IMG/VR virus record: IMGVR_UViG_3300044821_000131
Location: 1-64,000 of that record
Direction: 5' to 3' (one strand)
From: a virus
DNA length: 64,000 nt
A program made the translations under genes and the position numbers. Shown in pieces: positions 32,786 through 54,991 of the stretch. The notes beneath the pieces were generated by a model, which did not search any database, was not told the DNA's origin, and was given only the letters and a program-made list of their open reading frames with translations. Position 1 is the stretch's first letter; every line of letters begins with the position of its first letter.

Positions 32786-33007
32786 ATGGACATCACAAAA
32801 TTAAGCATTAAAGAATGTGCGGAACTTCAATCGCACGAAGGCAATTCCGAACTGGACAGGCGCGTAATGGAAGAACAGGACCGCATCGTTCGACTTTCCA
32901 TTGAGCAACTCACGGCGCTCTTGCTTGCCAGAAGTATTCGGCCAGATAAAACCGACATCAGGCTGAGAGCGGTAAGAGATGAACTCCTCACTCGCTTAGA
33001 TGTTTAA
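32786..33007 (+). CDS. Island A ORF 3: hypothetical protein, 73 aa
   Basis: Charged helical protein (MDITKLSIKECAELQSHEGN), no cysteine cluster. It ends within the second copy of the 27-base repeat, read in a different frame from ORF 2. No family recognised. Confidence 0.5.
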   Translation: MDITKLSIKECAELQSHEGNSELDRRVMEEQDRIVRLSIEQLTALLLARSIRPDKTDIRLRAVRDELLTRLDV

Positions 33008-33016
33008 CGTCCGCAG
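32990..33016 (+). repeat. 27-bp boundary repeat, copy 2
   Basis: Same 27 bases as 32740-32766. Followed by a small CCGCA...TGCGG hairpin and the ATG of the next ORF at 33038. Confidence 0.8.
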
Positions 33017-33037
33017 AATCCATGCGGCGATTTCAAA

Positions 33038-33295
33038 ATGACATCCAAAATTGCAACTGAACCGTTCAAGCACGGGAACAACCCGCATTGGCTTCATGCG
33101 GTGGTTCGGCGACTGGTTGCATGTCTGCACGTTCACCGCTGGGAAGAAACGCTTTGGAACGCATGGGGCATAGACGTGGAGCAACGCTGCCGCTGCGGTC
33201 AATACCGGCATCACCTGTTTGAGCATCGTCGCGGTTTCTGTCAAGAACCAAACTGGCAACTTGGAAAACATCCCAACCGATACATGGCAAAATGA
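33038..33295 (+). CDS. Island A ORF 4: hypothetical protein, 85 aa
   Basis: Contains LHVHRWEETLWNAWG and QRCRCGQYRHH, a pattern like short prophage proteins with HxW...CxC. ATGA-coupled to the next ORF. Function unknown. Confidence 0.5.
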   Translation: MTSKIATEPFKHGNNPHWLHAVVRRLVACLHVHRWEETLWNAWGIDVEQRCRCGQYRHHLFEHRRGFCQEPNWQLGKHPNRYMAK

Positions 33296-33591
33296 ACACT
33301 GATAATAGTCGAAAATATGAAAACGAAAATAAGATATTCGGATATGAATGGTCGGACATCCAGCGAGCGCAGCAAGGCGGAAGGCTGGCGCAGCCAGTCC
33401 GAACCGGCAACCTAAACGCATCGGTGCAATGCTTCCGATGTCACAAATACTTTCGGCTGCCGCAAACGATGGAAACCGACCCGTGGCCGGTGCAATGCCT
33501 TCACTGCGGCTATATGCACACGTCGCATGACGGAGAATCGGCTATGTGGCCGAAATGGGGCGATGATAACAAATGGCATACAGTGGCCTAA
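33292..33591 (+). CDS. Island A ORF 5: zinc-ribbon protein, 99 aa
   Basis: Two CxxC pairs, QCFRCHKYF and QCLHCGYMH, form a likely zinc ribbon. Its TAA stop is formed by the GCCTAAC left end of the attC-like site at 33586, the usual geometry of integron gene cassettes whose ORF runs up to the recombination site. Confidence 0.55.
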   Translation: MNTDNSRKYENENKIFGYEWSDIQRAQQGGRLAQPVRTGNLNASVQCFRCHKYFRLPQTMETDPWPVQCLHCGYMHTSHDGESAMWPKWGDDNKWHTVA

Positions 33592-33694
33592 CGCCGTGCG
33601 TGAGCCATCCCGGATTCACGACACACAACAATCAAAAACCTGAACGAATAAAGTGCAGCGGCCAACCGGGATTGGCTCGACGCACTTGTTAGGC
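33586..33694 (+). repeat. attC-like site A1 (109 bp)
   Basis: Left arm starts GCCTAAC and right arm ends GTTAGGC, perfectly complementary. Inner arms GAGCCATCCCGG and CCGGGATTGGCTC pair except for one extra base in the right arm. Folded stem of 28-29 positions around a central spacer of about 50 bases: the layout of a 59-base element. The bulge is on the right arm, so canonical orientation would be the minus strand. Confidence 0.7.
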
Positions 33695-39262: not shown

Positions 39263-39787
39263 ATGAAGATACATCTTTTGGTTGGCCAGCGAAAAGAGAG
39301 CTATGCTGGCGAGTTTGCTCCTGAAGTTTTGGAAGCCATAGACGAATTCGGTAATTGCGAAAATGCCGGCGAATGGCTGCAGGGTAAGATGAAGGAGTAC
39401 CGCGTTGACGCTTCTTTTGAAGCACTAGTCATAGTTACATTGGAAGTTCCTACACTTAAAATTTTGGAACGTTTACGTCCGAATAATGAACCTATTGTCG
39501 CCGAGGTGGTAGACACAGATTTATTGACCCTATATCTAAAAGATTCAGACGGTATTTGGAAATCACACAGCTACGAAACGTTATCCGATTTGGCCGGGGA
39601 GTTTGCCAAACGTAACATAAAAATCGGCAATGACGTGAAGATCGGCAATTTCGTGAAGATCGGCAATGACGTGACGATCGGCAATCGCGTGGCGATTGGC
39701 AATGACGTGATGATCGGCAATCGCGTGACGATCATTGATAACACATGTATACCTCCGGAGCTTATCATTCAAAAAAGACTAAGCTGA
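39263..39787 (+). CDS. Hexapeptide-repeat protein, chimeric and truncated (copy 3)
   Basis: Differs from the other copies at both ends. The first about 80 residues (LVGQRKESYAGEFAPEVLEA, EYRVDASFEALVIVTLEVP) are a separate short phage-protein domain. It is followed by the family N-terminal block (LYLKDSDGIWKSHSYETL) and six hexapeptide units. The C-terminal domain is missing: the frame runs into NTCIPPELIIQKRLS and stops at a TGA in the sequence AAGCTGA that also ends the ORFs at the attC-like sites in 42.1-42.5 kb. So a cassette-type rearrangement probably removed the original 3' end. Confidence 0.7.
   Translation: MKIHLLVGQRKESYAGEFAPEVLEAIDEFGNCENAGEWLQGKMKEYRVDASFEALVIVTLEVPTLKILERLRPNNEPIVAEVVDTDLLTLYLKDSDGIWKSHSYETLSDLAGEFAKRNIKIGNDVKIGNFVKIGNDVTIGNRVAIGNDVMIGNRVTIIDNTCIPPELIIQKRLS
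39620..39727 (+). repeat. 18-bp coding tandem repeat, 6 units
   Basis: Six units in frame with copy 3, after which the repeat decays into non-family sequence. Confidence 0.9.
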
Positions 39788-39896
39788 GACATCGGCACGG
39801 TCGAGAAATGACGGATACATTTGAAATCGCAACCAAACTAAAATCTATGGCCTATGGAAAGAGTAGTGCCGATTGTTCTCCAACACCGTGTTCGGC
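39780..39896 (+). repeat. Partial attC-like site B0
   Basis: Inner left arm AAGCTGAGACATCGGC and right arm CCGATTGTTCTCCAACACCGTGTTCGGC closely match the site at 42442-42552, including the extra bases on the right arm. The outer left end (RYYYAAC) is missing, replaced by hexapeptide-gene sequence: a junction or deletion scar. Confidence 0.55.
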
Positions 39897-41406: not shown

Positions 41407-41670
41407 ATGCCACGAGAACACTCAATGTCGTGCGAATGGCCAGAGGGTTGTAGCTGTGGAGCATCAGCGTGGAATCGATTGGAGCGTGAGCGTGACTGGT
41501 ATCGCTGTCGCGTAAAACTGTTGGAACAGCACAAGTCAATGCTCCGAGAGCCAGAACTAACGCTGGTATGTGATATCATGGCAAACGGCCAACTAATGCC
41601 CGACCCAGACGGGAAACGATATGGGCCTAACGCAGACTTGTCAGGCATATCGATAACAAAACTGACATAA
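41407..41670 (+). CDS. Island B ORF 1: hypothetical protein, 87 aa
   Basis: The ATG is inside a GTTATGC core (41404-41410), as for two other island ORFs. Contains CEWPEGCSCGAS and a helical middle. Near its end GCCTAACGCAGACTTG resembles the left arm of an attC-like site without a partner arm. No family recognised. Confidence 0.5.
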   Translation: MPREHSMSCEWPEGCSCGASAWNRLERERDWYRCRVKLLEQHKSMLREPELTLVCDIMANGQLMPDPDGKRYGPNADLSGISITKLT

Positions 41671-41675
41671 AACAT

Positions 41676-41882
41676 ATGACTGAAACTCCACAAACCAAAA
41701 AAACTCTGCTGCCGAAATACGAAGACGGAAGCGGATATAGGATCGAAAGAGAACTGTGTGTCTTCTGCCACAAACCGCTGCTCGACTCATTCCACTTTGC
41801 CAGCGATGACGGTAAGCAACACTGGCACACATACTGCGCAAACAGAAAAGGCGTAACGTCCCGGATGAGCCGCCCGCGATAG
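41676..41882 (+). CDS. Island B ORF 2: small Cys/His protein, 68 aa
   Basis: Contains LCVFCHKPL and HWHTYCANR, a likely zinc-binding set (CxxC, HxxxC). Its end passes through the left arm of the site at 41851. No family recognised. Confidence 0.5.
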   Translation: MTETPQTKKTLLPKYEDGSGYRIERELCVFCHKPLLDSFHFASDDGKQHWHTYCANRKGVTSRMSRPR

Positions 41883-41959
41883 GCGACTCACGAACACCAA
41901 AAGATTTATGATCAAAAAGAAAGCGTCAACGCGGGTTGGCTCCATCGGGCGGGTTATGC
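41851..41959 (+). repeat. attC-like site B1 (109 bp)
   Basis: Left end GCGTAAC, right end GTTATGC; arms pair as GATGAGCCGCCCGCG against the complement GATGGAGCCAACCCGCG, again with extra bases only on the right arm. Same length as site A1. The next ORF's ATG is inside the terminal GTTATGC. Confidence 0.65.
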
Positions 41960-42135
41960 CTCAGTTGGTGATATGCGACCATCATGGGCATGACTACTGC
42001 GAGGGATGCCAACATAACGAACCCCACAAAGCAAACAGTGAGGACGACGGCGAACTCTGCACATGCGGCGGAGTCTGTGGGGCAAACGGGCCAAACTTCA
42101 ACGTGCGCTGCCTGCGACATAACGCCTCAAGCTGA
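41956..42135 (+). CDS. Island B ORF 3: Cys/His-rich protein, 59 aa
   Basis: Starts MPQLVICDHHGHDYCEGC at the core site and has ELCTCGGVCGAN. Two clusters of Cys/His suggest zinc. It ends HNASS because the next attC-like left arm encodes the last residues and stop. A start at 41908 is possible but lies inside site B1. Confidence 0.5.
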   Translation: MPQLVICDHHGHDYCEGCQHNEPHKANSEDDGELCTCGGVCGANGPNFNVRCLRHNASS

Positions 42136-42236
42136 GGCACGTCGGACTAAAGACTTTATGAAACCTGTGAAACCAAAAATCCGTAGCGATAAAAACAAAC
42201 CGTCCAACCGACGTTGCCTCCGGCGCGGTGTTAGGC
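42117..42236 (+). repeat. attC-like site B2 (120 bp)
   Basis: Left end ACATAACGCC, right end GTTAGGC. Inner arms GAGGCACGTCGG and CCGACGTTGCCTC pair perfectly apart from one extra base on the right arm. Spacer of about 65 bases. One of the clearest sites in the window. Confidence 0.7.
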
Positions 42237-42262
42237 GACACGATTGGATAAACGGCCCCGAT

Positions 42263-42460
42263 ATGATTCCGAAGCCTGTAAAAAAGGCGATCAAAGAATG
42301 GCGGGCCATCACAAGTCCAATGGAGAAAATCGGATTCATCCTGCACGCTTTCGACCCGACAATACAGTTCCGCTGTCCCGACAGTAACCGAGTGTTTGAT
42401 ATGTCAATAAGTGCCGTCAAACGCATAAATGCCGCCTTGTCGCCTAACGCCTCAAGCTGA
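42263..42460 (+). CDS. Island B ORF 4: hypothetical protein, 65 aa
   Basis: Starts MIPKPVKKAIKEWRAITSP; basic and helical. Ends NASS, identical to ORF 3, because both stops are formed by the attC-like left arm ending AAGCTGA. A cassette-sized unit between sites B2 and B3. Confidence 0.55.
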   Translation: MIPKPVKKAIKEWRAITSPMEKIGFILHAFDPTIQFRCPDSNRVFDMSISAVKRINAALSPNASS

Positions 42461-42552
42461 GACATCGGCGACCTGCGATGTCCAGCAACCCAAAACCTTA
42501 TGCTCAAAACTGAAAGCGCCAATACCGATTGTTCTCCAGCGCCGGGTTCGGG
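42442..42552 (+). repeat. attC-like site B3 (111 bp)
   Basis: Left end GCCTAAC, right end GTTCGGG; inner arms GAGACATCGG against complement GAGAACAATCGG. Closely related to partial site B0 at 39780. The right-end core deviates from GTTRRRY. Confidence 0.6.
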
Positions 42553-42851
42553 TGCTGGCTTGGATAACTGAATGGGTCGAAGCAATCTGGAAGGCGTTTC
42601 GACCGCCAAAACGGAAGCGGCTGGAACTGCGGCTCTGCACATGGACTGCCGCAGACAAGCTGATTCGGGAAGGTGGCGGCGCTTGGACGGTAGCCGCCGA
42701 AGATGACCACAACATGGTGCTTGGGTGTGTGTGGTTGGAACGCCTGGAACAATATCCCGACTTCTCGAAGCAGCAGTCGAACGGTGAAGTCAGCGATGGC
42801 GGGACGCTGACTTCCGAATTGAAATCCAAACGCGAACCCGCCATTCGCTGA
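42552..42851 (+). CDS. Island B ORF 5: hypothetical protein, 99 aa (GTG start)
   Basis: Reads from GTG directly after site B3: MLAWITEWVEAIWKAFRPPK. Tryptophan-rich and basic at the start, acidic later. Its 3' third overlaps site B4. The same frame continues upstream through site B3 to 42429, which is unlikely to be translated. Confidence 0.45.
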   Translation: MLAWITEWVEAIWKAFRPPKRKRLELRLCTWTAADKLIREGGGAWTVAAEDDHNMVLGCVWLERLEQYPDFSKQQSNGEVSDGGTLTSELKSKREPAIR

Positions 42852-42861
42852 ATTGTTATGG
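42776..42861 (+). repeat. attC-like site B4 (86 bp, overlapping a gene end)
   Basis: Left end GTCGAAC, right end GTTATGG; inner arms CAGCGATGGCGGG and CCCGCCATTCGCTG pair with one extra base on the right. The following ATG is within the GTTATGG core. Confidence 0.55.
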
Positions 42862-43124
42862 CACTAATACACGAAGAAACTGAACACGAGCTTGGAGCGA
42901 AACTGATGGTATCGGAACGCCAAGAAGGTGAAACCCGCGCCCCGTGGAAAATCATCACGCTCGACGCAGACCGATTCGAGAATCTAACACCAACGGAACT
43001 CCGAAAGCTCGGAAAGTGGCTCATACACCAAGGGAGGCGCATCGGAAGTGAATACAAGTCCAACGGTGCGTTGAAGGCCAAGAGCCATAACGAAAAGCTG
43101 ATCGACAGCGGAAGGAAATTATGA
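42858..43124 (+). CDS. Island B ORF 6: hypothetical protein, 88 aa
   Basis: ATG lies in the core of site B4. Soluble and charged (LGAKLMVSERQEGETRAPWK), ending LIDSGRKL. ATGA-coupled to the next ORF. No family recognised. Confidence 0.5.
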   Translation: MALIHEETEHELGAKLMVSERQEGETRAPWKIITLDADRFENLTPTELRKLGKWLIHQGRRIGSEYKSNGALKAKSHNEKLIDSGRKL

Positions 43125-43357
43125 GCTTTAAAAACGGCGGATATAACAACGGGCTTGGTCGGCCAAAGGCGAAGAAGCTGTTCGCTCCGGCGCGTTGTTC
43201 TACGGCGTGGTTGAGCGTGGAATCCCGTTGGCCAGTCAAGGGTGAACTCGAAACCAAAAGATGCCTGACAATCCTAGACGCGGTAATAGAAGGAAAACGC
43301 GCCCTCCAATGTGGGGCGTGGCGCGTAACAATAACTCAGTGCAACGGAGCGCCGTAG
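43121..43357 (+). CDS. Island B ORF 7: hypothetical protein, 78 aa
   Basis: Starts MSFKNGGYNNGLGRPKAKKL, basic. Near its end GCGTAACAATAACTCAG resembles an unpaired attC-like left arm. It stops where the shared island-end sequence begins. No family recognised. Confidence 0.45.
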   Translation: MSFKNGGYNNGLGRPKAKKLFAPARCSTAWLSVESRWPVKGELETKRCLTILDAVIEGKRALQCGAWRVTITQCNGAP

Positions 43358-43390
43358 AACAGTTAATTAAACCAACGTTGGTCGTTTAAC
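43357..43390 (+). repeat. Shared island-end sequence, copy B
   Basis: GAACAGTTAATT...ACCAACGTTGGT...GTTTAAC, matching 33879-33912 at the end of island A. Contains the palindrome ACCAACGTTGGT. Confidence 0.6.
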
Positions 43391-43440: not shown

Positions 43441-44985
43441 ATGACCGACGACGTAGCCGCACCCCCGGGAGTGGAAATTACAGCTTGGGATGACTTTCCC
43501 AAGAAACGCCAGCAGATTCTCACTGGCGCTAAAACTGCCCTGCAAGAATCATTTCCCCAATCCTATGGCGGGGTGCGGCTTGAACTACACGACCTCGATT
43601 ACGACAATCCCAAGGAATTCACATTGTCGGAACAGAAGGACGCCCTGATGAAGAACCAGTTTCTCCATCACAAACTCAAGGGTACGTTAAAATTATTCGA
43701 TGAGAAAACCGGTGCGTTGCTGGATCAGAAAACTCAGACGCTCATGCGAGTTCCTTACCTTACCGAGCGTGGTACATTTCTACATAATGGTAACGAGATC
43801 ACCACCAACAGCCAGGCTCGGCTCATGCCGGGCATCTATACGCGGCGTAAGAATTCTGGTGAAATTGAGTCTCAGGTGAACGCCAAGCGTGGATCGGGAT
43901 CATCCTTCCGTGTACGTCTCGAACCCGAGTCCGGTTTGTTTAAGGTCGACATCGGTCAGAGTAGTCTGCGGCTTTATTCGTTGTTGAAAGATATTGGAGT
44001 GTCCGATCAGCAGATTGAGAAGACTTGGGGACCAGAACTGTTGAAGAAGAATCAGGACTCCTACGATGCCAGGGTGTTCGAGAAGGCTTACGATCGATTG
44101 GTGCGGCGTCCCGATCCGAAGGCCACGCGCGAGCAGAAGGTAGAGGCAATCAAGCAGGCTTTGGACAATACGCAGGTGGATCGGTCGGTGGTCATGAGGA
44201 CATTGCCGAATCTGTTCGCCACCAAGTTCTCCTCGATGTTGGCATTCGATCCTACCATGCCTCGGCCGCAGAGCGAGAAGAAGGAATTCAATCACGACGA
44301 TTGCCTGATGCTGGCGGAGCTGTTGAATCAGAAGTTTCATGCTGGCATTCCGTTGGATGCCCCGACCTCAGAGATCGTAGCCATGGTGATGGGTGAAATA
44401 CAGAAGCTCATGCCGTCGGTGAATGAGCAGATGCTGGCACAGACTGTAGGGCAACAGCAGAAAGAGGCGCGATCGAAACAAGGTTATCTGATGTTGAATT
44501 TCGAACCGGAAGACGCCATGAGGTTTTCCAAGTGGTCAAGGCAGAATATCCCGGATTCGAAACTGGGTGCGTCCGGACGTGAAGACACCCCGCATATCAC
44601 TTTGCGTTGGGGTATCAACACGGGTGATATTGGGCACCTGAAATCATTCTTCTCAGAACAGTCCCCAGTCCAAGCCACGCTCGGCGCTCTGACTCGATTT
44701 CCTGGCGTCGACGACGGAAACCAAGATGCACTAGTGGCGCCGGTAGAGTCCGAATCCATTCACAAGCTACACCATGCTGTCGTATCGACGTTTCATTCTC
44801 ATCTCGGACCCGTCAAGTTCAATACCTACCGGCCACATGTTACTCTAGCCTATTTAAGGCGTGGCGAGATGCCGGAATTGGAAGGTAACAAGGAGTTTCA
44901 TGGCCAGACATTCCAGTTGAAGAAGGTGGTGTATTCCAATCCTCGCACCAGCTCGTATATTGACATTCCGCTGGGTACAAATTAG
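43441..44985 (+). CDS. RNA polymerase beta-subunit N-terminal part fused to a 2H phosphoesterase
   Basis: Residues about 45-200 match the start of bacterial RpoB: MRVPYLTERGTFLHNGNEIT and NSQARLMPGIYTRR correspond to the PLMTxxGTFIINGxERV...QLxRSPGVYF block, then FRVRLEPESGLFKVDIG and LRLYSLLKDIGVS. Residues about 355-514 are a different domain with two H-x-T/V-L signatures, TPHITLRWG (H385) and RPHVTLAYL (H466), the 2H phosphoesterase (LigT-like) pair acting on 2',3'-cyclic or 2'-5' RNA ends. Such a fusion could clean RNA ends or protect phage transcripts. The rest of beta continues in a separate gene at 45712. Confidence 0.7.
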   Translation: MTDDVAAPPGVEITAWDDFPKKRQQILTGAKTALQESFPQSYGGVRLELHDLDYDNPKEFTLSEQKDALMKNQFLHHKLKGTLKLFDEKTGALLDQKTQTLMRVPYLTERGTFLHNGNEITTNSQARLMPGIYTRRKNSGEIESQVNAKRGSGSSFRVRLEPESGLFKVDIGQSSLRLYSLLKDIGVSDQQIEKTWGPELLKKNQDSYDARVFEKAYDRLVRRPDPKATREQKVEAIKQALDNTQVDRSVVMRTLPNLFATKFSSMLAFDPTMPRPQSEKKEFNHDDCLMLAELLNQKFHAGIPLDAPTSEIVAMVMGEIQKLMPSVNEQMLAQTVGQQQKEARSKQGYLMLNFEPEDAMRFSKWSRQNIPDSKLGASGREDTPHITLRWGINTGDIGHLKSFFSEQSPVQATLGALTRFPGVDDGNQDALVAPVESESIHKLHHAVVSTFHSHLGPVKFNTYRPHVTLAYLRRGEMPELEGNKEFHGQTFQLKKVVYSNPRTSSYIDIPLGTN

Positions 44986-45711: not shown

Positions 45712-47163
45712 ATGCTCACTTACGAAAAGATTTTCGCGCAGGCTAAAAAAGCTTTCGTCGAATCCAAATCTGCTACTGCCGAACCGGCTCAGCCCACAGA
45801 GGATACCGTTCCGGTCAATCCTGACGCGATCTTGGCTATCACCAGCAAGTTGTTAGCTGTGACTAGAGGTGAGGCGGATCCGGACGAACGTGATAGCCTT
45901 CAATTTAAAAGAGTTCACACTCCCGATAAACTGTTCGCCGAACGCATTAAGATGGATGCCCATAAACTGCGTAAGATCGCGATGCGTCGCGTTTCGCGTG
46001 TCCGCAATCTATCACCTATCGGTGTGGCGCATTTCGATCCTTACACGGGAGGATTGATCGTTGGGCATCCGTTATCCAGTCCTTTGGAAGAGACGAACCC
46101 GTTATCGCTTACGGAGCAGGCGAGACGCGTGACGCAGATGGGACCTGGTGGTATTCCTTCCTCGGATTCGATCACGGAAGAGGCACAATCTGTGTCTCCT
46201 TCGATATTCGGTTTCTTGTCAGCGATCGAAGGGCCGGAATGCTTTTCAGATGACACAGAGGTGTTCACTTATAACGGGTGGAAGTTTTGGAGTAGCATTA
46301 CAAATTCGGATCGTCTGGCCTGTCGTGATGAACACGGGCAAATGTTTTTCTCGGCCCCTAGTCGCCTAATAGCTGCACCTTATACTGGACCTATGGTCCA
46401 AGCTGACGCTCGGATGTTTCATTTAAAGGTTACGCCGAATCACAGGTTACTTGTCGCTAAGCACATGAGAAAATCACAAGTTCCCACGACTTGGTTTAAA
46501 ATTTTTGCCGGTGATTTTTCTGATCATAATGTTTTGCGATTCGACACCGGCAGCCTTCCATATTCTGGAAATTCTGTTTTAACATGGTCTCTACCCGATT
46601 ATGCTCTTGATAAGTTCATTCCGGAATACTTGTTCGATGCACCAATTTCTGCCCGACAGAAGTTGTTTGAAGCCCTACTTTTGGGAGATGGTCGGATTAA
46701 CAAAAACCACACCAATTTTACCAGCAGCAGCAAACAATTGGCTACTGATTTTGAACGTTTGGCCGTAGGCTTAGGACACACCACCAATTTTAGAAAATAT
46801 TTCGACAAGCGACCCCATGTACAAGCTTGGACTTATGAGATTAGTATTTTGAAGTTGCGCGAGCGCGTGGCGGCTAGAAAACCCAAGTCTGGTGTTGGCG
46901 GGCTGTTTTCGATAGTCGATTATTCTGGTATTGTGTATTGTGCCACGGTTCCCGGCGGCCTGTTGCTGACTCGACGTGGCGTATCTACCGGTGTATGGTC
47001 AGGCAATAGTGAACGCATCGGTGTAGATACGCGTCTCGCTTGGGGCGCTAACGTTGGCTCAGACGGAAAAATTTATCAGAAACTCTTGAATCGCAGGACT
47101 GGTCAGCATCAGTATGTGTCACCGGACGATCTCGTCGGTCGCACGGTTGGTATCCCTGAATAG
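45712..47163 (+). CDS. RNA polymerase beta-subunit middle part, containing an intein
   Basis: Extein of about 227 residues matching RpoB around the rifampicin pocket. RDSLQFKRVHTPDKLFAERI aligns with the DIDHLGNRRVR region; NPLSLTEQARRVTQMGPGG is the NPLSEITHKRRISALGPGG block; then IEGPE-intein-SERIG corresponds to IETPEGPNIGLI. After the intein the frame runs only 50 codons (GANVGSDGKIYQKLL) and ends GRTVGIPE, so the catalytic C-terminal half of beta must be a different gene outside this window. Together with the 43441 gene it makes a split beta subunit of a phage multisubunit RNA polymerase. Confidence 0.75.
   Translation: MLTYEKIFAQAKKAFVESKSATAEPAQPTEDTVPVNPDAILAITSKLLAVTRGEADPDERDSLQFKRVHTPDKLFAERIKMDAHKLRKIAMRRVSRVRNLSPIGVAHFDPYTGGLIVGHPLSSPLEETNPLSLTEQARRVTQMGPGGIPSSDSITEEAQSVSPSIFGFLSAIEGPECFSDDTEVFTYNGWKFWSSITNSDRLACRDEHGQMFFSAPSRLIAAPYTGPMVQADARMFHLKVTPNHRLLVAKHMRKSQVPTTWFKIFAGDFSDHNVLRFDTGSLPYSGNSVLTWSLPDYALDKFIPEYLFDAPISARQKLFEALLLGDGRINKNHTNFTSSSKQLATDFERLAVGLGHTTNFRKYFDKRPHVQAWTYEISILKLRERVAARKPKSGVGGLFSIVDYSGIVYCATVPGGLLLTRRGVSTGVWSGNSERIGVDTRLAWGANVGSDGKIYQKLLNRRTGQHQYVSPDDLVGRTVGIPE
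46240..47007 (+). mobile_element. Intein in RNA polymerase beta
   Basis: 256-residue intein from Cys177 (CFSDDTEVFTYNG) to Asn432 (GVWSGN), before extein Ser433. Block B MFHLKVTPNHRLL; one endonuclease motif FEALLLGDGRI; a second is not clear, so the endonuclease may be decaying. C-terminal block VYCATVPGGLLL. It interrupts the IEGPE/SERIG loop. Confidence 0.9.
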
Positions 47164-54571: not shown

Positions 54572-54991
54572 GGGCACGTACTGGTATCGATTGTTGTTGG
54601 GACTGAAAGACTGCGTGTAGCGGATGGTCGTTGGCCGCTTTAAACTCCGACCAAAACGAAAACGCTAATAGCGGATTCAATATGGGGCCAAGTGTGGCCG
54701 AAGCTGACGCGCTCCTCGCTAAGTTCGGATACACTGAAGCCGTTCTGGCCTGATTAAACAGGCCTCCCGATCTGCCGGGTTAGATGCTCGCTATACCGGC
54801 GGATCGTCACCAGCGAGACCAAGCCTTGGATAGGGCAACGGCTGTTTTTCTGAACAGAGCCGAGAATCTGGTTGGGAGTTTGTCTGAAGCTGGTTGTCGG
54901 TCCTTTCAGGCAGAGTATAAAATCGAATACACACGTAGCGGTTTGAAGCACTAGCAGCAAGACAGGGGTTCGACTCCCCTCGTGTCCACCA
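54572..54991 (+). ncRNA. ssrA: Phage-encoded transfer-messenger RNA
   Basis: 420-nt gene. The 5' end GGGCACG pairs with CGTGTCC before a templated ACCA (7-bp acceptor stem, one G-U). Next to the 5' end is CTGGTATCGATTG, the usual tmRNA D-arm-like start; the 3' end has the T-arm AGGGGTTCGACTCCCCT. Inside, a reading frame including NENANSGFN and ending KFGYTEAVLA stops at 54751-54753, the stop lying in the hairpin GGCCTGATTAAACAGGCC, the helix 5 position. The tag is longer than typical (about 30 residues). It rescues stalled ribosomes and tags nascent proteins for proteolysis; the SmpB partner would be host or elsewhere. Confidence 0.85.

Follow-up and report, generated by a model that had tools for sequence, protein, structure and literature searches.

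An integrase-less array of attC sites in a large phage genome, with attC polarity opposed to that of its genes

A 64,000-nucleotide stretch of phage DNA (the window; bases 1-64000 of the 204,257-base virus record IMGVR_UViG_3300044821_000131) carries a run of small genes separated by long inverted repeats, which a first-pass annotation likened to the attC recombination sites of integrons. The question raised by this locus is whether these elements are attC sites that delimit gene cassettes and, if so, what it means that they appear to point against the genes they accompany. Terminase, phage DNA polymerase, UvsX-like recombinase and helicase genes are present in the window, together with a tmRNA gene at 54572-54991 (ARAGORN; Rfam RF00023, 103 bits; predicted tag ARYTGGSSPARPSLG). 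Two RNA polymerase beta-like pieces were also observed, one at 43441-44985, whose start resembles phage RNA polymerase beta and whose end matches an RNA ligase family, and one at 45712-47163, which contains an intein-looking stretch recognized by eye only (ECFSDDTEVFTYNG...). The neighbouring RNA polymerase protein had no relatives among viral contigs, an IstB-like ATPase had matches only in the two known phages, and the array DNA had no match in phage and plasmid collections.

Both strands were searched with two covariance models. R1 derives from bacterial integrons only (19 attC sites from Alteromonadales, whose orientation was taken from the accompanying integrase genes) and contains no phage sequence; R2 was built from 30 attC sites of other phage contigs and contains no sequence from the window. 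With R2, the window yielded eight sites, every one of them on the minus strand:

33002-33110, minus strand: attC, first site of island A (R2 29.8 bits, E 1.8e-5)
33586-33694, minus strand: attC, second site of island A, with the top score (R2 88.5 bits, E 4e-19; R1 37.8 bits, E 6e-8)
39768-39896, minus strand: degenerate attC with an R'' box that lacks AAC (R2 21.7 bits, E 0.0014)
41851-41959, minus strand: attC site 1 (R2 56.4 bits, E 1e-11; R1 19.7 bits, E 0.0026)
42117-42236, minus strand: attC site 2 (R2 67.3 bits, E 4e-14; R1 15.2 bits, E 0.037)
42442-42552, minus strand: attC site 3 (R2 58.2 bits, E 5e-12)
42776-42861, minus strand: attC site 4 (R2 38.4 bits, E 2e-7; DNA fold z -3.6)
43085-43203, minus strand: attC site 5 (R2 37.6 bits, E 3e-7)

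The top plus-strand score between 30 and 45 kb was 13 bits, and R2, at E up to 1, had no match in this genome outside 33.0-43.2 kb. R1, run on the window with filters off, passed three of the eight sites, again on the minus strand only; the remaining five were found with R2 alone. Sites 1 to 4 are those that had been proposed initially. All of them are present, with R2 E values from 2e-7 to 4e-14, and they have the proposed attC layout of R'' and R' boxes, pairing L'' and L' arms and a variable loop. The original list was correct in each entry and incomplete, as four more sites on the same strand had been missed (33002-33110, 33586-33694, 43085-43203 and 39768-39896). A polarity-free structural scan, for which dinucleotide shuffles gave a null rate of 0.15 hits per 100 kb per strand at a score of 12, detected three of the four proposed sites as well as 33002-33110 and 33586-33694. 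Minimum-free-energy folding of isolated sites rose clearly above shuffles only for 33586-33694 and 42776-42861. Because the fold z-scores of most window sites are unremarkable, support comes from architecture, covariation and comparison, and not from stability alone. No attC match was obtained in an Rfam search at Rfam thresholds. The array meets the definition of a CALIN (at least two attC sites close together, without an integrase) and fails that of a complete integron, which requires an intI gene.

Comparison of individual sites showed 85% DNA identity over R'' to R' between 33002-33110 and a site in another carrier contig (G125), and 95% over the same span between 33586-33694 and a site in contig G003 (IMGVR_UViG_3300050009_000007) that is flanked by different genes. 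The degenerate site has repeats D3 and D10 in common with site 3. An ORF at 39263-39787 ends at this degenerate site and contains, at 39605-39748, an 18-bp tandem repeat that encodes hexapeptide repeats (Pfam Hexapep, E 4e-9). A short GCCTAAC...GTCAGGC element (41625-41646), which borders island B on its upstream side, has R''-like and R'-like boxes without arms; its match was excluded as not significant (E 0.2-0.3), and it may be the remnant of an attC without its hairpin or a product of chance.

The same attC family was found in about 20 distinct IMG/VR phage contigs besides this record, comprising 150 or more sites and 121 units. G001 (IMGVR_UViG_3300037185_000032) was found by a 17-base motif search of viral contigs, G003 via a shared cassette protein, and right-arm patterns yielded 12 and then nine further contigs, a few of which are overlapping copies. 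R1 gave 22 matches on 674 kb of phage contigs (best E 3e-7) and 13 on a further 308 kb, and 157 R2 matches were listed at E up to 1 over 908 kb of carriers. Compensatory changes occur in 11 of the 14 arm pairs of the R2 alignment; since its sites were selected for pairing, this covariation is partly circular, which is why the matches to R1 matter.

Sites of the phage family consist of R'' (RYYYAAC) and R' (GTTRRRY) boxes, pairing L'' and L' arms and a variable loop, with two extrahelical bases at constant spacing on the right arm. In canonical attC sites, the extra unpaired bases lie on the arm adjoining the stop of the gene. When sites were read along the genes, 113 such bases fell on the right arm and 13 on the left arm in the phage family, as compared with 7 and 66 in bacterial attC sites oriented by intI. 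The original observation that the unpaired bases occupy a near-constant place on the right arm thus extends to the whole family. Judged from sequence, the four sites noted at the outset are true attC sites; recombination data are not available.

If these sites delimit cassettes, their ends should carry a record of insertion. A cassette enters as a circle in which its two ends form a single R box, so that the bases after G|TT should complement those before the next AAC. Across 121 units, end complementarity averaged 7.76 of 12 positions within a unit and 4.78 of 12 between the two boxes of one site, and the match to a unit's own end was the better one in 97 units versus 11 (Wilcoxon p 1e-16). 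Agreement within units was 74-98% over the first nine positions and reached background by about position 12. Within-unit values in the window were 9, 9, 11, 9, 9 and 10, against same-site values of 5, 7, 7, 6, 4 and 6, and for each window unit the best AAC within 1.7 kb was that of the next annotated box. The units and the gene that precedes them are as follows:

33008-33591, plus strand: cassette between the island A sites, ORF 33292-33588 (98 aa); ends complementary at 9/12 vs 5/12 for the same site
41676-41882, plus strand: gene of the unit that opens island B; its 68-aa product is rich in cysteine and histidine, and its 3' end lies within the following attC
41857-42122, plus strand: cassette with attC core and gene 41956-42135 (or from a loop ATG at 41908), extending to the next R''
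42123-42447, plus strand: cassette, ORF 42158-42460 (100 aa) with its ATG in the attC loop; ends complementary at 11/12
42448-42781, plus strand: cassette, ORF 42552-42851 (99 aa) with a GTG start adjoining R'; ends complementary at 9/12
42782-43090, plus strand: cassette, ORF 42858-43124 (88 aa) with its ATG within the R' box; ends complementary at 9/12
43091-43359, plus strand: last cassette, ORF 43121-43357 (78 aa) with its start in the attC loop; own-end match 10/12

A 12/12 inverted repeat (43196-43207 and 43350-43361) also marks the last cassette. The right border of the array is an R'' box, GTAGAAC, at 43354-43360, beyond which lie phage backbone and the RNA polymerase gene. For the gene at 41676-41882, no R' complementary to its R'' was found upstream, and its own upstream attC was not found. 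Self-complementary unit ends would be expected of cassettes inserted from circles, and would not be expected of terminators or random hairpins. The proposal that the small ORFs end in left arms and start in or just after right-end cores held true in the window and family-wide.

More direct evidence for the extent of a unit came from a cassette shared with other phages. Window positions 41855-42124 are 93% identical to G003 and 91% identical to G001; homology starts at the AAC (41855) of the upstream R'' and stops at the AAC of the downstream R'' (42117-42123). Identity of the upstream attC is 0.94-0.99 and that of the downstream attC 0.55-0.66, against a background median of 0.58. The upstream attC appears to travel with the gene, as would fit a unit that consists of attC followed by gene. 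Only one gene-containing unit demonstrates this directly, and two of the three phages are close relatives. In G001 and G003, flanks are 73-90% identical at the DNA level, but the arrays share one of about six units; comparison of related phages thus revealed the presence/absence pattern that had been suggested as a check. A gene shared by contigs G124 and G128 also ends at R'', its upstream side lying off the contig. Another, shared by G128 and G142, has R boxes on either side, but neither of the adjoining attC cores matches between the two contigs, which suggests that cores can be replaced or exchanged, with no single explanation. On the combined basis of independent model hits, self-complementary unit ends and a whole shared unit, the interpretation of the array as integron gene cassettes is supported.

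We then considered the direction of the genes relative to attC. R1 matched one strand per phage array, opposite to the genes. Full-length reading frames were antisense-only with respect to attC in 66 of 120 units, sense-only in 5, open on both strands in 36 and on neither in 13; bacterial control arrays gave 82 sense versus 10 antisense (ties counted as sense). Substitutions in shared genes, counted by codon position in the gene frame, were 2, 1, 10 for the window cassette (41857-42122, plus strand) and 4, 3, 11 for another shared gene. Pfam matches to methylase, Dam, MT-A70 and YopX families lie on the strand of the genes, as do HTH and radical SAM domains. The definition of a canonical cassette, with attC 3' of the ORF in the same orientation, is not satisfied: attC is 5' and opposite. 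The suspected reversal is accordingly borne out, with every model hit in the array on the minus strand and genes on the plus strand, and likewise in other phage arrays with a resolvable direction. Reversed gene/attC polarity appears well supported. A 32-kb phage contig (G138; L129, L130) carries two opposite attC arrays, with gene polarity reversed in both.

The reversed arrangement places start and stop codons within the sites. An in-frame ATG inside the attC loop opens the gene frame in 72 of 121 units, 20 of which (20/72) have a Shine-Dalgarno-like motif; translation from this ATG is inferred. Stops of upstream genes are concentrated in two clusters, one on the TAA belonging to the R'' box and one on a left-arm TGA, and the NASS ending previously seen in two ORFs corresponds to the latter cluster. 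As the reading frame through the right arm varies among units, the arm is probably tolerated N-terminal sequence, not a selected peptide.

Could the polarity be only apparent, with canonical attC sites serving real minus-strand genes and the plus-strand ORFs spurious? The units open on both strands would permit this, although such a number (36/120) is expected for short units. We consider it very improbable and contradicted by the data: most substitutions in shared genes fall on third codon positions when read in the gene frame, recognizable protein families are encoded on that same strand, unambiguous units are antisense to attC by 66 to 5, and the genes run with the flanking phage operon. 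The same low standing is given to a reading of the hairpins as terminators or other structures between ordinary phage genes, without any recombination history. attC sites are thought to be weak terminators, according to PMC9892861. Terminator-like patterns were not in excess in our analysis, however (2 found vs 3.0 expected; one minus-strand pattern, 42832-42848, overlaps attC), and the criterion for an intrinsic terminator, a short G+C-rich stem followed by a T run, was not met at the sites. The sites span 86-135 nt with fixed R boxes and extrahelical bases, unit ends complement each other and not the hairpin's own partner box, and a whole unit ending at R'' boxes is common to unrelated phages. 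What would have refuted the first-pass annotation, namely the absence of any model hit, stable non-modular ORFs and hairpins acting only as terminators, was not encountered.

The source and mobility of the units are harder to settle. The 204,257-base record yielded neither a tyrosine recombinase nor an IntI, in line with the earlier remark that no integrase is visible; TIGR02249 had no match in G000, G001 or G003, and PF00589 was absent from all carriers except G127/G132, whose protein resembles XerC-type recombinases and falls below all curated cut-offs. Records of attC carriers are labelled 'linear' and may be incomplete, so a missing integrase is weak evidence. When 84,980 bacterial genomes were searched for an attC motif, the only four hits were attributable to chance, and R2 detected only scattered, lower-scoring ordinary attC sites in 399 Pseudomonadota and 396 Bacteroidota genomes, with no host or donor integron found among them; two bacterial examples with clear sites and ORFs were inspected and had sense orientation. 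The lack of an integrase in any carrier, the absence of a host integron from the sample, and attC modules common to different genes, as in sedentary chromosomal integrons, would all be compatible with passive capture, in which fragments of bacterial integrons entered by homologous or illegitimate recombination, are now immobile, and inherited their polarity from the host integron. We regard this as unlikely, though deserving more weight than the other alternatives: some twenty different arrays have almost no genes in common, the genes are of phage type (Dam, YopX, methylases) and run in line with phage operons, and G001 and G003 differ in nearly all units between conserved flanks. The least credible alternative is that carrier contigs are misassigned bacterial integron fragments. 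Some short contigs do have few phage genes, but the main carriers contradict it, given the terminase, polymerase, UvsX and helicase genes in the window of the 204-kb record and terminase or portal genes in other carriers. Carrier terminases belong to different families (phrog_979, phrog_2, phrog_15 and phrog_2666), which places the arrays in unrelated phages.

We judge it highly probable that the locus is an integrase-less cassette array in a large phage, with attC polarity set against the genes and IntI supplied in trans. According to the standard model, the extrahelical bases determine which folded strand IntI cuts. Strand selectivity rests on unpaired features (PMC8946536); with these features reversed, crossover would occur at the left box (R'', AA|C), and the mobile unit would comprise the attC core, the gene and the greater part of the following R box, which puts attC 5' of the gene. 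The upstream gene's stop codon lies in the left arm of attC, and in many cases an ATG for the downstream gene lies in the loop, so that inserted units could be read through in line with phage transcription. IntI acting in trans, most likely from a host with a chromosomal integron, would move units between phages that share the host; such action of a host integrase is a likely inference, unsupported as yet by recombination data. DNA methyltransferases in other arrays suggest, by inference, that the benefit of the units is escape from host restriction. That the class is adapted to phages is plausible and not proven, resting on phage-type methyltransferase and YopX genes and on the sense orientation of the bacterial control. 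A stronger proposal, which in our estimation could equally be right or wrong, is that phages of one host group maintain a dedicated pool of "5-prime attC" cassettes, in which attC, joined to the 5' side of the gene, provides the stop of the preceding gene as well as the start of its own, so that units inserted by the host integrase are translatable in a phage operon without an integron promoter.

These findings suggest that phages hold a reservoir of integron cassettes of their own, with many DNA-modification genes among its contents. The importance ascribed to attC strand selectivity is that cassettes are inserted in the orientation in which Pc can express them (PMC8946536). A large family whose genes consistently face the other way, in elements where no Pc was recognized, makes this explanation testable from the opposite side. 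Cassette genesis is also at issue, as a gene with a 5' attC must have an origin other than that of a gene with a 3' attC. Annotation of viral integrons that ignores polarity would assign genes to the wrong attC.

Several features are shared with known systems. Cassettes of class 1 and sedentary chromosomal integrons likewise have R''/L''/L'/R' boxes, two extrahelical bases on one arm, an unpaired central spacer, a variable loop and matching unit ends. A cassette is defined as an ORF with a 3' attC in the abstract of PMC4670013; by that standard the phage units differ in having attC at the 5' side, an in-frame start in many units, and no intI or Pc that could be recognized. At the right end of the G003 array, a 127-bp backbone segment is duplicated (97.6%) inside the array (L022 7539-7665 and 9214-9340), where it lies on the margin of a unit between an R''-like and an R'-like box. 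This duplication, present only in G003, may represent an attI-like site copied into a unit; a resemblance to the Delta-attI-type cassettes of mobile integrons, as described in the abstract of PMC12901181, is speculative.

The closest relatives are phage CALINs. Qi et al. 2023 (PMC9892861) described 17 integrase-less attC clusters in virulent phages, as separate cases, and five of six phage attC sites that they tested recombined with attI1 through IntI1. Those arrays and ours are alike in lacking an integrase and in cassettes rich in DNA methyltransferases; ours differ in that a single attC family recurs in about 20 contigs, phages have a complete cassette in common and the opposed polarity of genes and attC is quantified. 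The polarity of genes relative to attC is not mentioned in the passages of that paper that were read, and no paper on consistently reversed cassettes or on start codons in attC was found in the open-licence literature. Applied to published phage CALINs, R1 and R2 placed TJE1 attC sites in the sense orientation, those of PH101/H101 antisense and those of ctTUS972 weakly antisense; in the CALIN of Pseudoalteromonas phage H101/PH101 (L149 25919-27987), four attC sites are opposite to the annotated genes. The initial suggestion of a distinct, reversed class is therefore upheld as to reversal and needs qualifying as to distinctness, since integrase-less attC clusters in phages had been published (PMC9892861) and PH101/H101, by our reading of its record, is also antisense. 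Integrase-less phage attC arrays were already known; what is new is a pool of cassettes in phages whose genes run opposite to attC and which a host IntI presumably mobilizes.
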